Shown here: in pieces, positions 225-56,024 of the stretch
Position numbering within the stretch: the stretch's first letter is position 1
Layout: each line of letters begins with the position of its first letter
Assembly (NCBI RefSeq): GCF_024436435.1
Contig: NZ_JAFMZP010000007.1
Location: forward strand, 124,001-188,000
Direction: 5' to 3'
Length of the DNA stretch: 64,000 nt
Source of the DNA: Desertivirga xinjiangensis
GTDB taxonomy: Bacteria > Bacteroidota > Bacteroidia > Sphingobacteriales > Sphingobacteriaceae
The notes under the pieces: model-generated
Seen by the model: the letters and a program-made list of their open reading frames with translations, nothing else
Database searches by the model: none
Told to the model about the DNA's origin: nothing
Translations under genes and position numbers: made by a program

Positions 225-956
225 ATGATTGGAGAAGAAGAGATAGTTAGTGTTGCTGAATATCTGAAAGTGATTAAGGAGTATAAAGAGCAAACCAATC
301 ACAAAGGTAATCAGGAAGGCTTTGTATTCAGGGGACAAGCAGGTGACCATCCCCTTATCCCTAAAATCGGCCGCCTTAAACCGAAGGGAGATCTGTTAAG
401 TACTGAACATCTTCTTCTCCAGGAATTCAAAAGAACAAATCCCTTGTTAATAGAGGCGAGGAGACCTTACGACGACTGGGACTATTTGACACTTGGACAG
501 CATTTTGGCTTGCCGACGCGGCTGCTCGACTGGTCGAATAATGCCCTGACCGCTTTATGGTTTGCCACAGACACCAGTAAACAAAGAAATGATTCTGACT
601 ACGCTGTGGTTTGGGTGCTGATTGCTGATAAAGATGATTATGAACTGAACATCGGCGGGTACCATCCTTTTGAAATTAAAGAAACAAAAATATTCCAGCC
701 GCGGATCATAAAACAGCGGATCAATAACCAGTCGGGTGTGTTTTCCATACAAACAAGCGCAGAGGTTGAATGTAAAACAGAGCTTGATAAAACCGATTCA
801 TTTTCACAAAAAGTATTGAAAATCAAGCTGAAGCAGCAGGTTTTTCCTGGAATCAGAGACGATTTGAACACTTTGGGCGTGAATGCATTCACCATTTTTC
901 CCGAGCTTGAAGGTTTATGCAACTACCTGCAATGGAGATATTTTGTTGACGAATGA
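225..956 (+). CDS. FRG domain-containing protein
   Basis: 243 residues from the ATG at 225. The frame is open further upstream to a TTG at 111, but that would overlap the transpeptidase gene. The FRG domain is named for its Phe-Arg-Gly motif, here FVFRGQAGDH with FRG at residues 35-37; a second conserved block, LGQHFGLPTRLLDWSNNAL (about 90-108), is typical of the family. The biochemical role of FRG domains is not established; they occur in presumed toxins and defence-associated proteins. The stop overlaps the next start (ATGA at 953-956), so translation is probably coupled to the PAP2 gene. No signal peptide or membrane segment is seen. Confidence 0.85.
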   Translation: MIGEEEIVSVAEYLKVIKEYKEQTNHKGNQEGFVFRGQAGDHPLIPKIGRLKPKGDLLSTEHLLLQEFKRTNPLLIEARRPYDDWDYLTLGQHFGLPTRLLDWSNNALTALWFATDTSKQRNDSDYAVVWVLIADKDDYELNIGGYHPFEIKETKIFQPRIIKQRINNQSGVFSIQTSAEVECKTELDKTDSFSQKVLKIKLKQQVFPGIRDDLNTLGVNAFTIFPELEGLCNYLQWRYFVDE

Positions 957-51158: not shown

Positions 51159-51183
51159 GCTGTTAGCTAATAGCTAACAGCCT
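51157..51183. terminator. terminator shared by recQ and trpA
   Basis: AGGCTGTTAGCT, loop AAT, AGCTAACAGCCT: a perfect 12-bp stem. It begins on the last stop base of recQ and covers the trpA stop (51167) and last codons. TTTT follows in the plus direction. Confidence 0.85.
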
Positions 51184-51955
51184 CTTTTCCTTTCAGCGAT
51201 CCAATAAACTCAGGAATCTTTTCCAGATAGTTCTCTTCAGCCAATATCTTTACAAAAGCGCTTCCTACAATAGCTCCATTAGCATATTCACTTGCCTTAC
51301 TGAAACTTTTATTATCAGAGATCCCAAAGCCGATCATGGTCGGATTTCTAAGCTCCATGCTTTTAATCCTGGAAAAGTAATCCTCTACCTGGCTTGATAC
51401 CGACAGGTTTTTACCGGTAGTTGATGACGTAGAAAGCAAATAGATAAAACCATTACTTAATTCGTCAATTCTCCGGATACGAGCCTCTGAAGTGGTTGGC
51501 GTGATTAAAAAGATGTTGCTTAACTGGTTCTGTATAAAGCAATCCTGGTAAAGTTCTTCATACTCGTACATAGGCAGATCAGGAACAATAACTCCATCCA
51601 CGCCAACTTCCGCGCATTTCGAACAAAAATTCTCAACACCATACTGCAATACAGGATTCACATAACCCATTAGCAGTACCGGGATAGATACCCGTTTTCT
51701 CAGGTCTTTTAACTGCTCGAATAACACCTTTACCGTCATCCCATTTTCAATAGCCTTTTGCGAGCTATTCTGGATAACCGGTCCATCAGCCAGAGGATCA
51801 GAGTACGGCACTCCGATTTCAAGGAAGTCGGCGCCTGCTTTCTCCAGGGCTTCTGCAATATCCAATGTGCTGTCTATATTCGGGTAACCGGCAGTAAAAT
51901 ATATGGAGAGAACGTTGTTCCTTTTTTGTTCGAAAAGCTGTTTGATTCTATTCAT
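51167..51955 (-). CDS. trpA: tryptophan synthase alpha subunit
   Basis: 262 residues, TIM barrel. Catalytic Glu and Asp in FLEIGVPYSDPLADGP, plus GVDGVIVPDLP and LLSTSSTTG. It cleaves indole-3-glycerol phosphate and passes indole to TrpB. Last gene of the trpDFBA operon; 44 bases after trpB. Confidence 0.97.
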   Translation of the reverse strand: MNRIKQLFEQKRNNVLSIYFTAGYPNIDSTLDIAEALEKAGADFLEIGVPYSDPLADGPVIQNSSQKAIENGMTVKVLFEQLKDLRKRVSIPVLLMGYVNPVLQYGVENFCSKCAEVGVDGVIVPDLPMYEYEELYQDCFIQNQLSNIFLITPTTSEARIRRIDELSNGFIYLLSTSSTTGKNLSVSSQVEDYFSRIKSMELRNPTMIGFGISDNKSFSKASEYANGAIVGSAFVKILAEENYLEKIPEFIGSLKGKEAVSY

Positions 51956-51999
51956 TGTTTTCTGATGAGCTCTTATTTAATAAATACTTTAATGATCAA

Positions 52000-53181
52000 T
52001 TATAATCCAAAATGCGTCATATAGGTGCTCAGATCTTTATCACCGCGGCCCGACAGACAAATCACCACAGTCTCATCTCCCTTAAATTCCATTTTATCAA
52101 GATAAGCCAGTGCATGAGAGCTCTCTATGGCAGGAATGATCCCCTCAAGCCTGGCTAATTGTAAACCGGCATCCATAGCTTCGTTGTCAGTGATACTTAC
52201 GTATTTGGCCCTTGCTGAGGCAAATAAATGTGCATGCTGAGGGCCAATGCCCGGGTAATCCAATCCGGCAGAAATAGAATATGGCTCCACTACCTGACCG
52301 TCTTCAGTTTGCATCACAATAGAACGGCTTCCATGAAGAACACCTTCCTTTCCCAAAAGGGTGGTAGCTGCAGATTCTCCCGACTCGACTCCTTTTCCCG
52401 CTGCCTCTACTGCGATTAGTTTCACATCATCCTGGTCAAGGAAATGATAGAACATCCCCATGGCATTGCTGCCTCCGCCGACACAAGCCAGTACATAGTC
52501 AGGGTTTACTTTTCCGGTTTTCTCTTTTAGTTGCGCCCTGGTCTCTTCTGAGATGATCGACTGAAAACGTGCAACCATATCAGGGTAGGGATGCGGACCA
52601 ACCACCGAACCAATAATATAGTGAGTATCTACAGGATTATTGATCCAATCACGTAAAGCCTCATTTGTAGCGTCTTTTAAAGTTTGACTGCCTGAAGTTG
52701 CAGGTATAACCGTAGCGCCCATCATTTTCATACGGGCGACATTCGGTGCCTGACGTTCAATATCTACAGCCCCCATGTAAACTACACACTCAAGCCCTTT
52801 TAAGGCACATACAGTAGCTGTAGCTACTCCATGCTGACCCGCGCCGGTTTCCGCGATAATTCGTTTTTTTCCTAAACGCTCGGCTAAAAGGATCTGCCCT
52901 ATAGTATTGTTAATTTTGTGCGCCCCAGTATGATTAAGGTCTTCACGCTTCAGATAAATAGTTGTACCATATTTCTCAGAAAGGCGCTCTGCCAGATATA
53001 GGGGAGAAGGACGGCCTACATAATCCTTCAGTAAAAGAAGAAATTCATGCTGAAACGCAGGTTCGCTCATAATACTGAGATACTTTTCTCTAAGTTCTTC
53101 CACATTAGGATATAACATTTCCGGCACGTATGCACCTCCGAAATTTCCGTAATACCCTTTTTCGTTTACATGATAGCTCAT
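52000..53181 (-). CDS. trpB: tryptophan synthase beta subunit
   Basis: 393 residues, PLP enzyme. The PLP lysine lies in [25 protein letters not shown] and the phosphate-binding GGGSNAMG are present. TrpB1-type length and the adjacent trpA fit a normal alpha2beta2 complex. Four bases after trpF. Confidence 0.98.
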
Positions 53182-53185
53182 TTTG

Positions 53186-53851
53186 TTATTTTATTAGGCC
53201 TGTCGGCTTCGTTTTGATTCTGTTTATTGCTTGTGATAATTTCGCTATGTCTTTCAATCCAGGTGCCAGCTCAAACCGGCTGTTCAGATCCAAAGCATAA
53301 AACCTTTCGTCTCTGATGTCTAATGCCTGTTCTATATTAGCAGTATCTAGTCCGCCGCTTAAAAAATAAGGAACGTCCAGGGAATACGCGTCGAGCAGGT
53401 CCCAGTTAAAGGTCTGGCCCGAGCCGCCGTGAAGCTTCGTCTTTGTATCAAATAAAAAATAATCCACTACATCCTTATACTCGTTTAAAACGGCAAAGTT
53501 GAAACTTTCGTCCACCCCGAAGGCTTTTATTACCTCTGTTTGATGATCCTGCAGAGCTTGACAAACCTCTGCTGATTCGTTGCCGTGCAACTGCACAGCA
53601 TTTAAATTGTAGAGTGATTTCGTTTCCAGAATTTCATCGAGCCCGGCATCGACAAACACACCTGTCTTTTTAATTGGGCGGGGCAGTTGCTGCAGCACAT
53701 CTCTATCCAGTTCGCCCGCGTAGCGTTTAGAGGGGCCATAGAATATAAATCCAATATAATCTGGTAATAATGCAGCCAGTGACAGAATGTTATCCGGCTC
53801 ACGCATGCCACATACTTTTATCCTTATCGTATTTTGCAGATTGTCTGACAT
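53186..53851 (-). CDS. trpF: phosphoribosylanthranilate isomerase
   Basis: 221 residues, TIM barrel. [11 protein letters not shown] carries the catalytic Cys; [19 protein letters not shown] contains the catalytic Asp, and [11 protein letters not shown] binds phosphate. Overlaps the trpD stop by one base (TAATG). It is directly after trpD, with no trpC between. Confidence 0.96.
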
Positions 53852-54849
53852 TAGGCGTAAGCTCCTGCTAACAGTGTTTCGAAACTTTTTAATGCTTTTT
53901 TACTGAAAAGTGATTCTTCTGCTTCATAAAAGCAGTCGGCAAATGATTTATCTGCATTTATGGTTCTTATTGCAAGAGCCGCATTACATAACACCACGTT
54001 GTTTTGTTCTGTTGTAGCTCCTCCGTTTAAAACACTGCTGAATATTTTTGCCGATTCTTCCACCGTACTGCCACCGCTTATTTTTTCTGCCTGTATTGGT
54101 TCAAATCCCAGGGTATCCAGAGCATAGATATGTTCGCCACTGTTAGAGAACGTTTTAAAGCTTCCAGTCAGTGAAATCTCGTCATACCCGTCAAGAGCAT
54201 GAAGTATGGTGTATTTTTTATCTGATTTCTGGTATAAGTAAGCATAAATCCTGGCCAGTTCCAGACTGAACACTCCCACAGACTGATAGAAAGGTTTAGC
54301 GGGATTTACCAGAGGCCCCAGCATATTGAAAAAGGTTTTTACGCCGAGCTCTTTCCTTATAGGCGCCATTGTTTTCATCGCCGGATGGAACAACGGGGCA
54401 TGAAGGAAACAAATTCCAGCTTCTTCAATATTCCTTTTTAATAAAGAGGTATCATTGGTAAATTGATACCCGAGGTACTCCATCACATTTGAGGAACCGC
54501 AACCAGATGAAACACCATAGTTTCCGTGTTTTGCTACCTTGTATCCGGCTCCCGCTACTACGAAAGAGGCAAGGGTTGAGATGTTAAAGGTGTTTTTGCC
54601 ATCACCTCCCGTGCCGCATAGGTCAATCAGATCATAGTTTTCCAGGCCTGTTTGCAAACAAAGGTCAAGCATGGCATCCCGAAATCCTTCAAGCTCCTGA
54701 ACGGTAATTGTCCGCATGCAATAGGCCGTCATAAATGCAGCCATTTGAGAGTTATTATAGATCCCTTTGGTGATATTGGTTAAGATCTCCTTAGCTTCTG
54801 TTTTGGTAAAGCTCTTATGTTCAAAAAGGTGATTTAGTATTGCTTTCAT
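53851..54849 (-). CDS. trpD: anthranilate phosphoribosyltransferase
   Basis: 332 residues from ATG 54849. A TTG at 54879 would add ten residues but lies at the end of the terminator T-run. PRPP-binding DLCGTGGDGKNTFNIST, KHGNYGVSSGCGSSNVME and a nucleoside phosphorylase fold. First structural gene of this operon, preceded by the Trp leader and attenuator; trpE and trpG are not upstream, where a divergent YitT gene lies. Confidence 0.96.
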   Translation of the reverse strand: MKAILNHLFEHKSFTKTEAKEILTNITKGIYNNSQMAAFMTAYCMRTITVQELEGFRDAMLDLCLQTGLENYDLIDLCGTGGDGKNTFNISTLASFVVAGAGYKVAKHGNYGVSSGCGSSNVMEYLGYQFTNDTSLLKRNIEEAGICFLHAPLFHPAMKTMAPIRKELGVKTFFNMLGPLVNPAKPFYQSVGVFSLELARIYAYLYQKSDKKYTILHALDGYDEISLTGSFKTFSNSGEHIYALDTLGFEPIQAEKISGGSTVEESAKIFSSVLNGGATTEQNNVVLCNAALAIRTINADKSFADCFYEAEESLFSKKALKSFETLLAGAYA

Positions 54850-54877: not shown

Positions 54878-54907
54878 AAAAAAAAAGGTTGCCTGATAAG
54901 AGCAACC
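54878..54907 (-). terminator. trp attenuator terminator (3:4)
   Basis: On the minus strand GGTTGC (54907-54902), loop TCTTATCAG, GCAACC (54892-54887), then nine T (54886-54878). It lies 53 bases downstream of the Trp leader stop and 28 bases before the trpD ATG. Regions before it can form the competing antiterminator. Confidence 0.9.
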
Positions 54908-54979
54908 CTGTTTTTATATTTATTGTAATACAGCTTGCCTTCCGATTCAATCGAAATGCCACCATTTAGCTGTATTTAC
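54902..54979 (-). promoter_or_regulatory. trp attenuator pairing region (1:2 and 2:3)
   Basis: Segment 1, GTAAATACAGCT (54979-54968; codons 6-9 of the leader), pairs with segment 2, AGCTGTATTAC (54935-54925), over 11 bases with one bulged A. Segment 2 with its 5' neighbours, GCAAGCTGTATT (54938-54927), also pairs with segment 3, AAACAGGGTTGC (54913-54902), as GCAA/TTGC plus CTGT/ACAG. A ribosome stalled at the Trp codons would cover segment 1 and free 2 to pair with 3, blocking the terminator. Confidence 0.8.
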
Positions 54980-54994
54980 TGTTTTTAAAATCAT
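54947..54994 (-). CDS. trpL: tryptophan leader peptide
   Basis: ATG at 54994-54992, TGA at 54949-54947: MILKTVNTAKWWHFD, 15 residues with tandem Trp at codons 11-12, directly after pairing segment 1. It is followed by a full attenuator. Trp is the rarest codon, and two in a row in a 15-codon ORF in front of trpD is very unlikely by chance. Confidence 0.9.
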   Translation of the reverse strand: MILKTVNTAKWWHFD

Positions 54995-55004
54995 TTATTA
55001 AGCA

Positions 55005-55035
55005 CAAATATCAATATATCTTTTTTTTTATGCAA
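55005..55035 (-). promoter_or_regulatory. trp operon promoter
   Basis: Minus strand GATATTTG (55012-55005), one mismatch from TAnnTTTG, with TTG (55035-55033) 20 bases upstream as -33 element. The -7 box is 10 bases before the leader ATG. The -33 TTG is within a small palindrome ATGCAA / TTGCAT (55030-55046). Confidence 0.65.
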
Positions 55036-55139: not shown

Positions 55140-56024
55140 ATGAAAAGCCGAAGAACCAAATATATGTTATCCCTGGAACAAAAGATAGGGAAGTTAGCAT
55201 TCGTAATTGCGGGAGTTTTGCTGGCTGCATTTGGACTAAAAGGTTTTTTGGTGCCGAATGGGTTTATCGATGGAGGGGTAACTGGTATTTCCCTGCTGGC
55301 AAATCACATCACCCACATCCCCGTTTCTGTCTGGCTGGTTGTTTTTAATGCACCATTTATCTACCTGGGCTTAAAGCAGATCGGGAAGGATTTTGCAAAG
55401 CAGACACTGGCTGCGGTAGCGGGATTGGCAGTAGTAATATTCTTTTTAGATTTTCCGGTTATTACTCATGATAAACTGCTCATCTCAATCTTTGGAGGGT
55501 TCTTTTTAGGCGCAGGAATCGGTTTGGCTATGAGAGGTGGCTGTGTGCTCGATGGAACAGAGATCATCGCGGTCTATATAAACCGGAAGAGTGTTTTTTC
55601 TATAGGAGATATCATTCTCATCATCAATGTTGTGATATTTATCGTTGCGGCTTTTATTCTTGGTATTGAGGCTGCACTATACTCGATACTAACCTATCTT
55701 TCAGCCTCTAAAACAGTGGATTTTATTATTCAGGGTATCGAAGAATACACCGGGGTAACTATCATCTCTGCCAAGAGTAAAGAGATCCGTGAAGCCATTA
55801 TTCATAGCCTCGGCCGGGGAGTAACCATATATAAAGGTGAACGCGGTTACGGCAGCAATATTTATGCAGACAAGGAAATAGATATTATTTTTACTGTAGT
55901 AACCCGCCTTGAGGTATCAAAAGTAAAGGAAGTAACTAAGCTGATTGACAGGAAAGCCTTCATGGTAATGAATGTGATCACAGAAACCAACGGCGGGATC
56001 ATCAAGCAGCGGCCCCTGCATTAG
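55140..56024 (+). CDS. YitT-family membrane protein (DUF161/DUF2179)
   Basis: 294 residues with five membrane helices (about 15-170), bearing the YitT pattern LVPNGFIDGGVTGISLL, GLAMRGGCVLDGTEIIAVYI, then a C-terminal DUF2179 domain (GVTIISAKSKEIREAIIH, GRGVTIYKGERGY). Function unknown; the DUF2179 domain may be a regulatory sensor. Divergent from the trp operon. Confidence 0.92.
   Translation: MKSRRTKYMLSLEQKIGKLAFVIAGVLLAAFGLKGFLVPNGFIDGGVTGISLLANHITHIPVSVWLVVFNAPFIYLGLKQIGKDFAKQTLAAVAGLAVVIFFLDFPVITHDKLLISIFGGFFLGAGIGLAMRGGCVLDGTEIIAVYINRKSVFSIGDIILIINVVIFIVAAFILGIEAALYSILTYLSASKTVDFIIQGIEEYTGVTIISAKSKEIREAIIHSLGRGVTIYKGERGYGSNIYADKEIDIIFTVVTRLEVSKVKEVTKLIDRKAFMVMNVITETNGGIIKQRPLH

Follow-up and report, generated by a model that had tools for sequence, protein, structure and literature searches.

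A divergent tryptophan leader upstream of trpDFBA in Desertivirga xinjiangensis with the predicted workings of a ribosome-mediated attenuator

The principle of attenuation has long been known from Escherichia coli, where the leader trpL contains a short open reading frame (ORF) with tandem Trp codons, where the pairings 2:3 and 3:4 are mutually exclusive and where a ribosome stalled at the Trp codons frees segment 2. For the Bacteroidetes, the Bacteroidete tryptophan peptide leader RNA (Bacteroid-trp, Rfam RF01692) was described computationally by Weinberg et al. in 2010 (PMC2864571), and a discussion from 2019 takes it, for Flavobacterium psychrophilum, to be a probable Trp attenuator (PMC6414381); a first-pass annotation of the DNA analysed here also stated that attenuators had been predicted in this phylum. 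The papers that we found treat leader-peptide control of the trp genes of Bacteroidetes from sequence only, and a text search of open-licence papers returned no experimental study of trp attenuation in these bacteria. We focus here on a leader upstream of trpD in a stretch of 64,000 nucleotides from Desertivirga xinjiangensis (the window). We regard this leader as a new and divergent member of that class, which is known from computation, and its sequence speaks well for classical ribosome-mediated attenuation.

Against RF01692, the window reaches 36.8 bits and so stays short of the 49-bit gathering threshold (E = 0.012 in a 501-base search), with the consensus architecture aligned over the full model length (model positions 1–131). 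The likeness lies in the placement, in a long hairpin that spans the Trp codons and the stop codon, and in a shared AGUAAAUACA...UGGUGG core. In the window, an outer stem and an inner hairpin (Table 1) stack to form one long hairpin, as in the Rfam consensus; the model itself stops at the first half of the terminator. Its cut-off is passed by only 1 of 60 related genomes, and a second Trp leader in the same genome, located at trpE, was not reported by the RF01692 search even at an E value of 10. The current Rfam model misses nearly all of the Sphingobacteriaceae trp leader family. In other phyla, trp genes are controlled by T-box, Trp-binding protein or riboswitch systems, and given this precedent the leader could be read by a sensor of such a kind, with the ORF as a by-product. 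We consider this extremely unlikely: no Rfam family reaches its gathering threshold in the window, the best weak leader match is Bacteroid-trp itself, and the conserved features described below, Trp codons and stop-proximal pairing, are needed only by a translating ribosome. The best explanation, which we hold with high confidence, is a ribosome-mediated transcription attenuator of the trpDFBA operon.

The leader ORF lies on the minus strand between a promoter and trpD, with the 15 codons and the tandem Trp codons that the first-pass annotation had given it (Table 1). The annotated promoter (TTG, 20 bases, GATATTTG) also stood up to comparison: 61 of the 62 trpD leaders have the −7 element nAnnTTTG no more than 45 nt ahead of their ATG, as compared with 21% of shuffles, and the family median of the TTTG-to-ATG distance is 11 nt. 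In F. johnsoniae, 87% of transcripts have leaders longer than 10 nt, and a distance of 4–5 nt between the transcription start and the −7 element was the basis for calling probable promoters (PMC6847099). With this spacing, the 5′ UTR of the window's leader would be about 5–6 nt long and transcription would start near 55000, and the Trp leader may, on the strength of the promoter motif spacing, be translated almost leaderlessly. Relatives of trpD align from ATG 54849, which is thus its most likely start, rather than TTG 54879. The order trpDFBA without trpE, trpG or trpC recurs across Sphingobacteriaceae loci. On the other side of the leader, the neighbouring yitT-like gene points the opposite way, and the terminator is thus unusable by any directly upstream gene on the minus strand. 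Furthermore, the 64-kb window contains four short ORFs with WW, and only the leader ORF has a terminator within 110 nt. The 5′ end of this trp operon is opened by a short tandem-Trp ORF, and an intrinsic terminator on the same strand lies between that ORF and the first gene.

Table 1. Features of the trpD leader region in window coordinates, with the trpE leader of the same genome
Feature	Position	Strand	Basis or remark
Predicted sigma-ABfr promoter (TTG, 20 nt, GATATTTG)	TTG 55035-55033; GATATTTG 55012-55005	minus	Motif; relatives
Leader peptide ORF MILKTVNTAKWWHFD, 15 codons	ATG 54994 to TGA 54947	minus	Sequence; WW/WWW leaders at equivalent place in 61 relatives
Tandem Trp codons 11-12 (predicted stall site)	54964-54959	minus	Sequence; Trp codons conserved in 62-sequence alignment
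Segment 1, 5′ arm of outer stem (codons 6-9)	54979-54968	minus	Predicted to pair with 54935-54925
3′ arm of outer stem, AGCTGTATTAC	54925-54935	minus	Predicted fold; shuffle test
Inner hairpin around stop codon, TTTCGAT/ATCGGAA, part of 1:2 structure	54956-54950 with 54946-54940	minus	Predicted fold; family equivalent covaries
Segment 2, GGCAA plus CTG, predicted antiterminator 5′ side	54931..54939	minus	GGCAA-type segment just past stop in most relatives; pairs with segment 3
Segment 3, predicted antiterminator 3′ side and terminator left arm, CAGGGTTGCT	54901..54910	minus	Pairing and terminator analyses
Intrinsic terminator 3:4, AGGGTTGC, loop, GCAACCTT, nine T	54878..54909; T-run 54886-54878	minus	Fold; terminator in 62/62 leaders
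trpD, first regulated gene	53851..54849	minus	TIGR01245, 301 bits (cut-off 199)
trpF, trpB, trpA, same operon as trpD	51167..53851	minus	Gene order
yitT-like gene, divergent neighbour of leader	55140-56024	plus	Leader lies between it and trpD
trpE leader, WWW ORF MLKVIHTKNWWWQAIACAG, terminator ACCCGACG/CGTCGGGT	G000:C20, L106 about 749-880		Upstream of trpEGC

Conservation of the ORF, of WW and of the stems in relatives had been set beforehand as the check on this locus, and a lack of it as a refutation; the locus withstands this check, as both ORF and stems are conserved. A search for TrpD gave 80 loci, 61 of them Sphingobacteriaceae loci with enough upstream sequence (L060, with 204 bases upstream only, was left out of the leader count). 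Every one of the 61 has a short ORF with WW or WWW upstream of trpD and, with the window included, a terminator follows 26–51 nt past the leader stop codon in all 62 leaders; such an arrangement is thus not due to chance. The terminator itself had been read correctly as GGTTGC/GCAACC plus nine T, and its stem covaries in the family, column pair 117–135 being G-C in 29 rows and C-G in 13. In two Pedobacter loci (L048 and L049), the terminator lies 394 and 388 nt before trpD, far beyond the distance in most relatives. Beyond the Trp run, the leader peptides have little in common apart from a frequent His or Leu after it and Asn-rich stretches. This variability bears on the idea that the terminated leader RNA, or the peptide encoded by it, has a role in trans in addition to its role in cis: termination would free a short RNA carrying an ORF, and a trans role of a Trp leader peptide, peTrpL of Sinorhizobium meliloti, is reported (PMC7298713), but the wide variation of the non-W letters over the family argues against a conserved peptide target, and we regard such an additional role as unlikely.

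Covariation was assessed by counting pairs on the named structure, together with shuffle and partner-swap tests. The whole structure scores 0.254, a value reached by none of 500 shuffles, and controls in which the structure was slid along the alignment score 0.123 at most. RNAalifold returned no pairs on the plain 62-sequence alignment, apparently because MAFFT moves several clades by one base in the hairpins. Turning to the individual stems, the proposed 1:2 pairing of codons 6–9 with a later segment holds in the window and its congeners. This outer stem has 11 pairs and one bulged A (−12.8 kcal/mol; p = 0.001 against shuffles), and two congeners keep it with quite different letters (ATTTACACATA/TATGTGTAAAT and AACGTATATAT/ATGTATATGTT); in the window and these two congeners, the arms bind their own partners at −12.8, −11.7 and −10.5 kcal/mol, as against −4.0 to −7.0 kcal/mol when swapped. 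As a family-wide feature, on the other hand, the outer stem was rejected, since it is significant in only 13% of leaders. On these comparisons, the outer stem is real, with a range of about the genus, and the family-wide equivalent of 1:2 is a shorter, covarying hairpin around the stop codon, to which the inner hairpin of the window, missed in the first-pass list of stems, corresponds. This hairpin begins directly after the Trp codons and ends just before or within GGCAA; pair 38–58 is U-A in 24 rows, A-U in 15 and C-G in 3, and pair 39–57 is U-A in 33, C-G in 10, U-G in 8 and A-U in 2.

The antiterminator 2:3 is formed by GGCAA (54939–54935), which is able to pair with UUGCU of the terminator left arm (54905–54901). 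In the window alone the pairing is weak (−8.2 kcal/mol, p = 0.19), and the support for this part of the earlier claim thus comes from relatives and from the switching test described below. Across the trpD set, 77% of cells show 2:3 (GGCAA(Y)CC with GGGUUGCC), against 25–57% in slid controls, and the pairing is mostly conserved rather than clearly covarying. Its support comes from the comparison of the trpD and trpE leader classes: the middle regions of trpD leaders have a median of −10.0 kcal/mol with the trpD terminator arm of the locus they come from, as compared with −4.8 kcal/mol with trpE arms; for the middle regions of trpE leaders, the values are −8.7 kcal/mol with their own arms and −6.8 kcal/mol with those of trpD. 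The trpE middle of the same genome binds the trpD arm about as strongly as its own (−9.3 and −9.1 kcal/mol), and thus without showing specificity. In the non-Sphingobacteriaceae trpE leaders of this arm-swap test the antiterminator seems to extend into the terminator loop. In one congener (G002, L174), GGGGCCCTCTG stands in place of GGCAA and could instead bind CAGGG in segment 3; the simulated switch is kept.

In order to follow the effect of ribosome position, we folded the growing leader as far as the end of segment 3 and kept the bases under the ribosome unpaired; the calculation treats truncated RNA at equilibrium and not its kinetics. In the window, 2:3 has a probability of 0.94 when Trp codon 11 occupies the A site, as compared with 0.03 both when the stop codon is there and when no ribosome is present. 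It is 0.90–0.95 for stalls at codons 8–14 and 0.03 at codons 15–16, with identical values over five assumed footprint sizes. The resulting switching index of 0.91 is matched by none of 300 shuffles of the stretch from the Trp codons to segment 3 (mean 0.04), and the index averages 0.65 across all 62 trpD leaders, as compared with 0.05 in shuffles. In silico, an antiterminator excludes the terminator under the control of ribosome position, and the enterobacterial logic proposed for this locus is the best reading. In the complete leader, the minimum-energy fold always favours the terminator; the switch thus relies, like that of E. coli, on the order in which the segments are transcribed. The same fold would suit an unregulated 5′ terminator that merely sets the level of trpDFBA, with an incidental WW ORF. 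Yet WW is kept in 62 of 62 leaders, the switching index is unlike that of shuffles, and other genomes combine the terminator with the leader and the pairing segments at trpE, trpD and trpB, all of which makes an unregulated terminator very improbable.

From the parts, their conservation and the ribosome-dependent switching in silico, we infer the course of events in a ribosome-mediated attenuator, from transcription and the translation of the leader to termination and the Trp response. RNA polymerase would start just upstream of the leader ORF, with a ribosome following. When charged tRNA-Trp is sufficient, the ribosome would pass codons 11–12 and get to the last codons, segments 1 and 2 would pair, and the GGCAA segment would be covered by the ribosome. 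Segment 3, left free, would pair with segment 4, and the terminator would end transcription some 30 nt short of trpD. Under a shortage of charged tRNA-Trp, the ribosome would stall at the Trp codons and mask segment 1 together with the 5′ arm of the inner hairpin. Segment 3 would then be captured by GGCAA ahead of the synthesis of segment 4, no terminator would form, and trpDFBA would be transcribed. The switch very probably turns the trp genes off when tryptophan is plentiful.

The remaining genes of the pathway, trpE, trpG and trpC, lie together on another contig of the same genome, behind the trpE leader listed in Table 1, and 27 of 30 trpE loci from Sphingobacteriaceae have a leader of this kind. 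Among more distant relatives, 17 loci have trpE and trpG just upstream of trpD, with a leader at trpE and none at trpD; one of these (L086) has WRW in place of WW. The Sphingobacteriaceae trp genes thus lie in two operons, each with an attenuator. Like the trpD leader, the trpE leader of the same genome has a segment 2 complementary to the left arm of its terminator, but its segments 2 and 3 are different (GCCGGGT and ACCCG), and its simulated 2:3 forms even without a ribosome (0.88), unlike that of the trpD leader; untranslated trpE leader RNA should thus behave differently. We give even chances to the wider proposal that, in Sphingobacteriaceae, trpEGC and trpDFBA each have their own attenuator and antiterminator sequences, so that one tRNA-Trp signal would feed two independently tuned switches, with translation of both leaders beginning very close to the 5′ end.

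We built a covariance model from the trpD leaders and used it to search 198 genomes belonging to the same class. Among the best 30 loci, 25 have trpE, trpD or trpB directly downstream, 3 run off the contig and 2 look false. The window scores 2e-8 as part of the training set, and the trpE leader of the same genome, from outside that set, has an E value of 0.015. In two other genomes of the class (L152 and L161), a Trp leader stands before trpB, itself ahead of trpE; the leader thus goes with whichever gene comes first.

A leader of a different kind was seen at another locus of the same genome (L001). The Rfam hit there (41 bits, better than the window's own) was rejected as a Trp leader, as it has no Trp codons. 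The region (L001:1521-1801, G000:C4) lies before a PLP aminotransferase-like gene (L001:1823-3007) and contains two tandem leader ORFs, MSTKKVNTIYVAAVAKTTVEG and MKIQALYISLFVVVAVAIAVAVAVVNKRRVD, which are rich in Val, Ala and Ile codons and have a terminator each. Equivalent tandem V/A/I leaders occur in all four other genomes found with the gene, where segments close to the stop codons are complementary to the arms of the terminators. The arrangement looks like a tandem attenuator sensing valine/alanine.

Overall, the first observation of this leader proved right in nearly every detail. What the Bacteroidetes branch adds to the attenuation principle is that it has the switch twice, one for each half of a split pathway. 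The trpD leader is compact and well conserved, its mutually exclusive stems are explicit, and together with the trpE leader it makes a natural pair of switches in one cell; a direct test of the mechanism is thus within reach in relatives that can be cultivated, such as Pedobacter or Mucilaginibacter. With E. coli trpL the trpD leader shares the tandem-Trp ORF, the exclusive 2:3 and 3:4 pairings and the predicted freeing of segment 2 by a Trp stall. It differs from trpL in that segment 1 includes a part upstream of the Trp codons, in that its 5′ UTR is predicted to be about 5–6 nt, and in that it would control trpDFBA and not trpE, which has a second leader. As far as sequence can tell, this is a leader that would work like the Bacteroid-trp leader and E. 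coli trpL, without Rfam's formal membership score.
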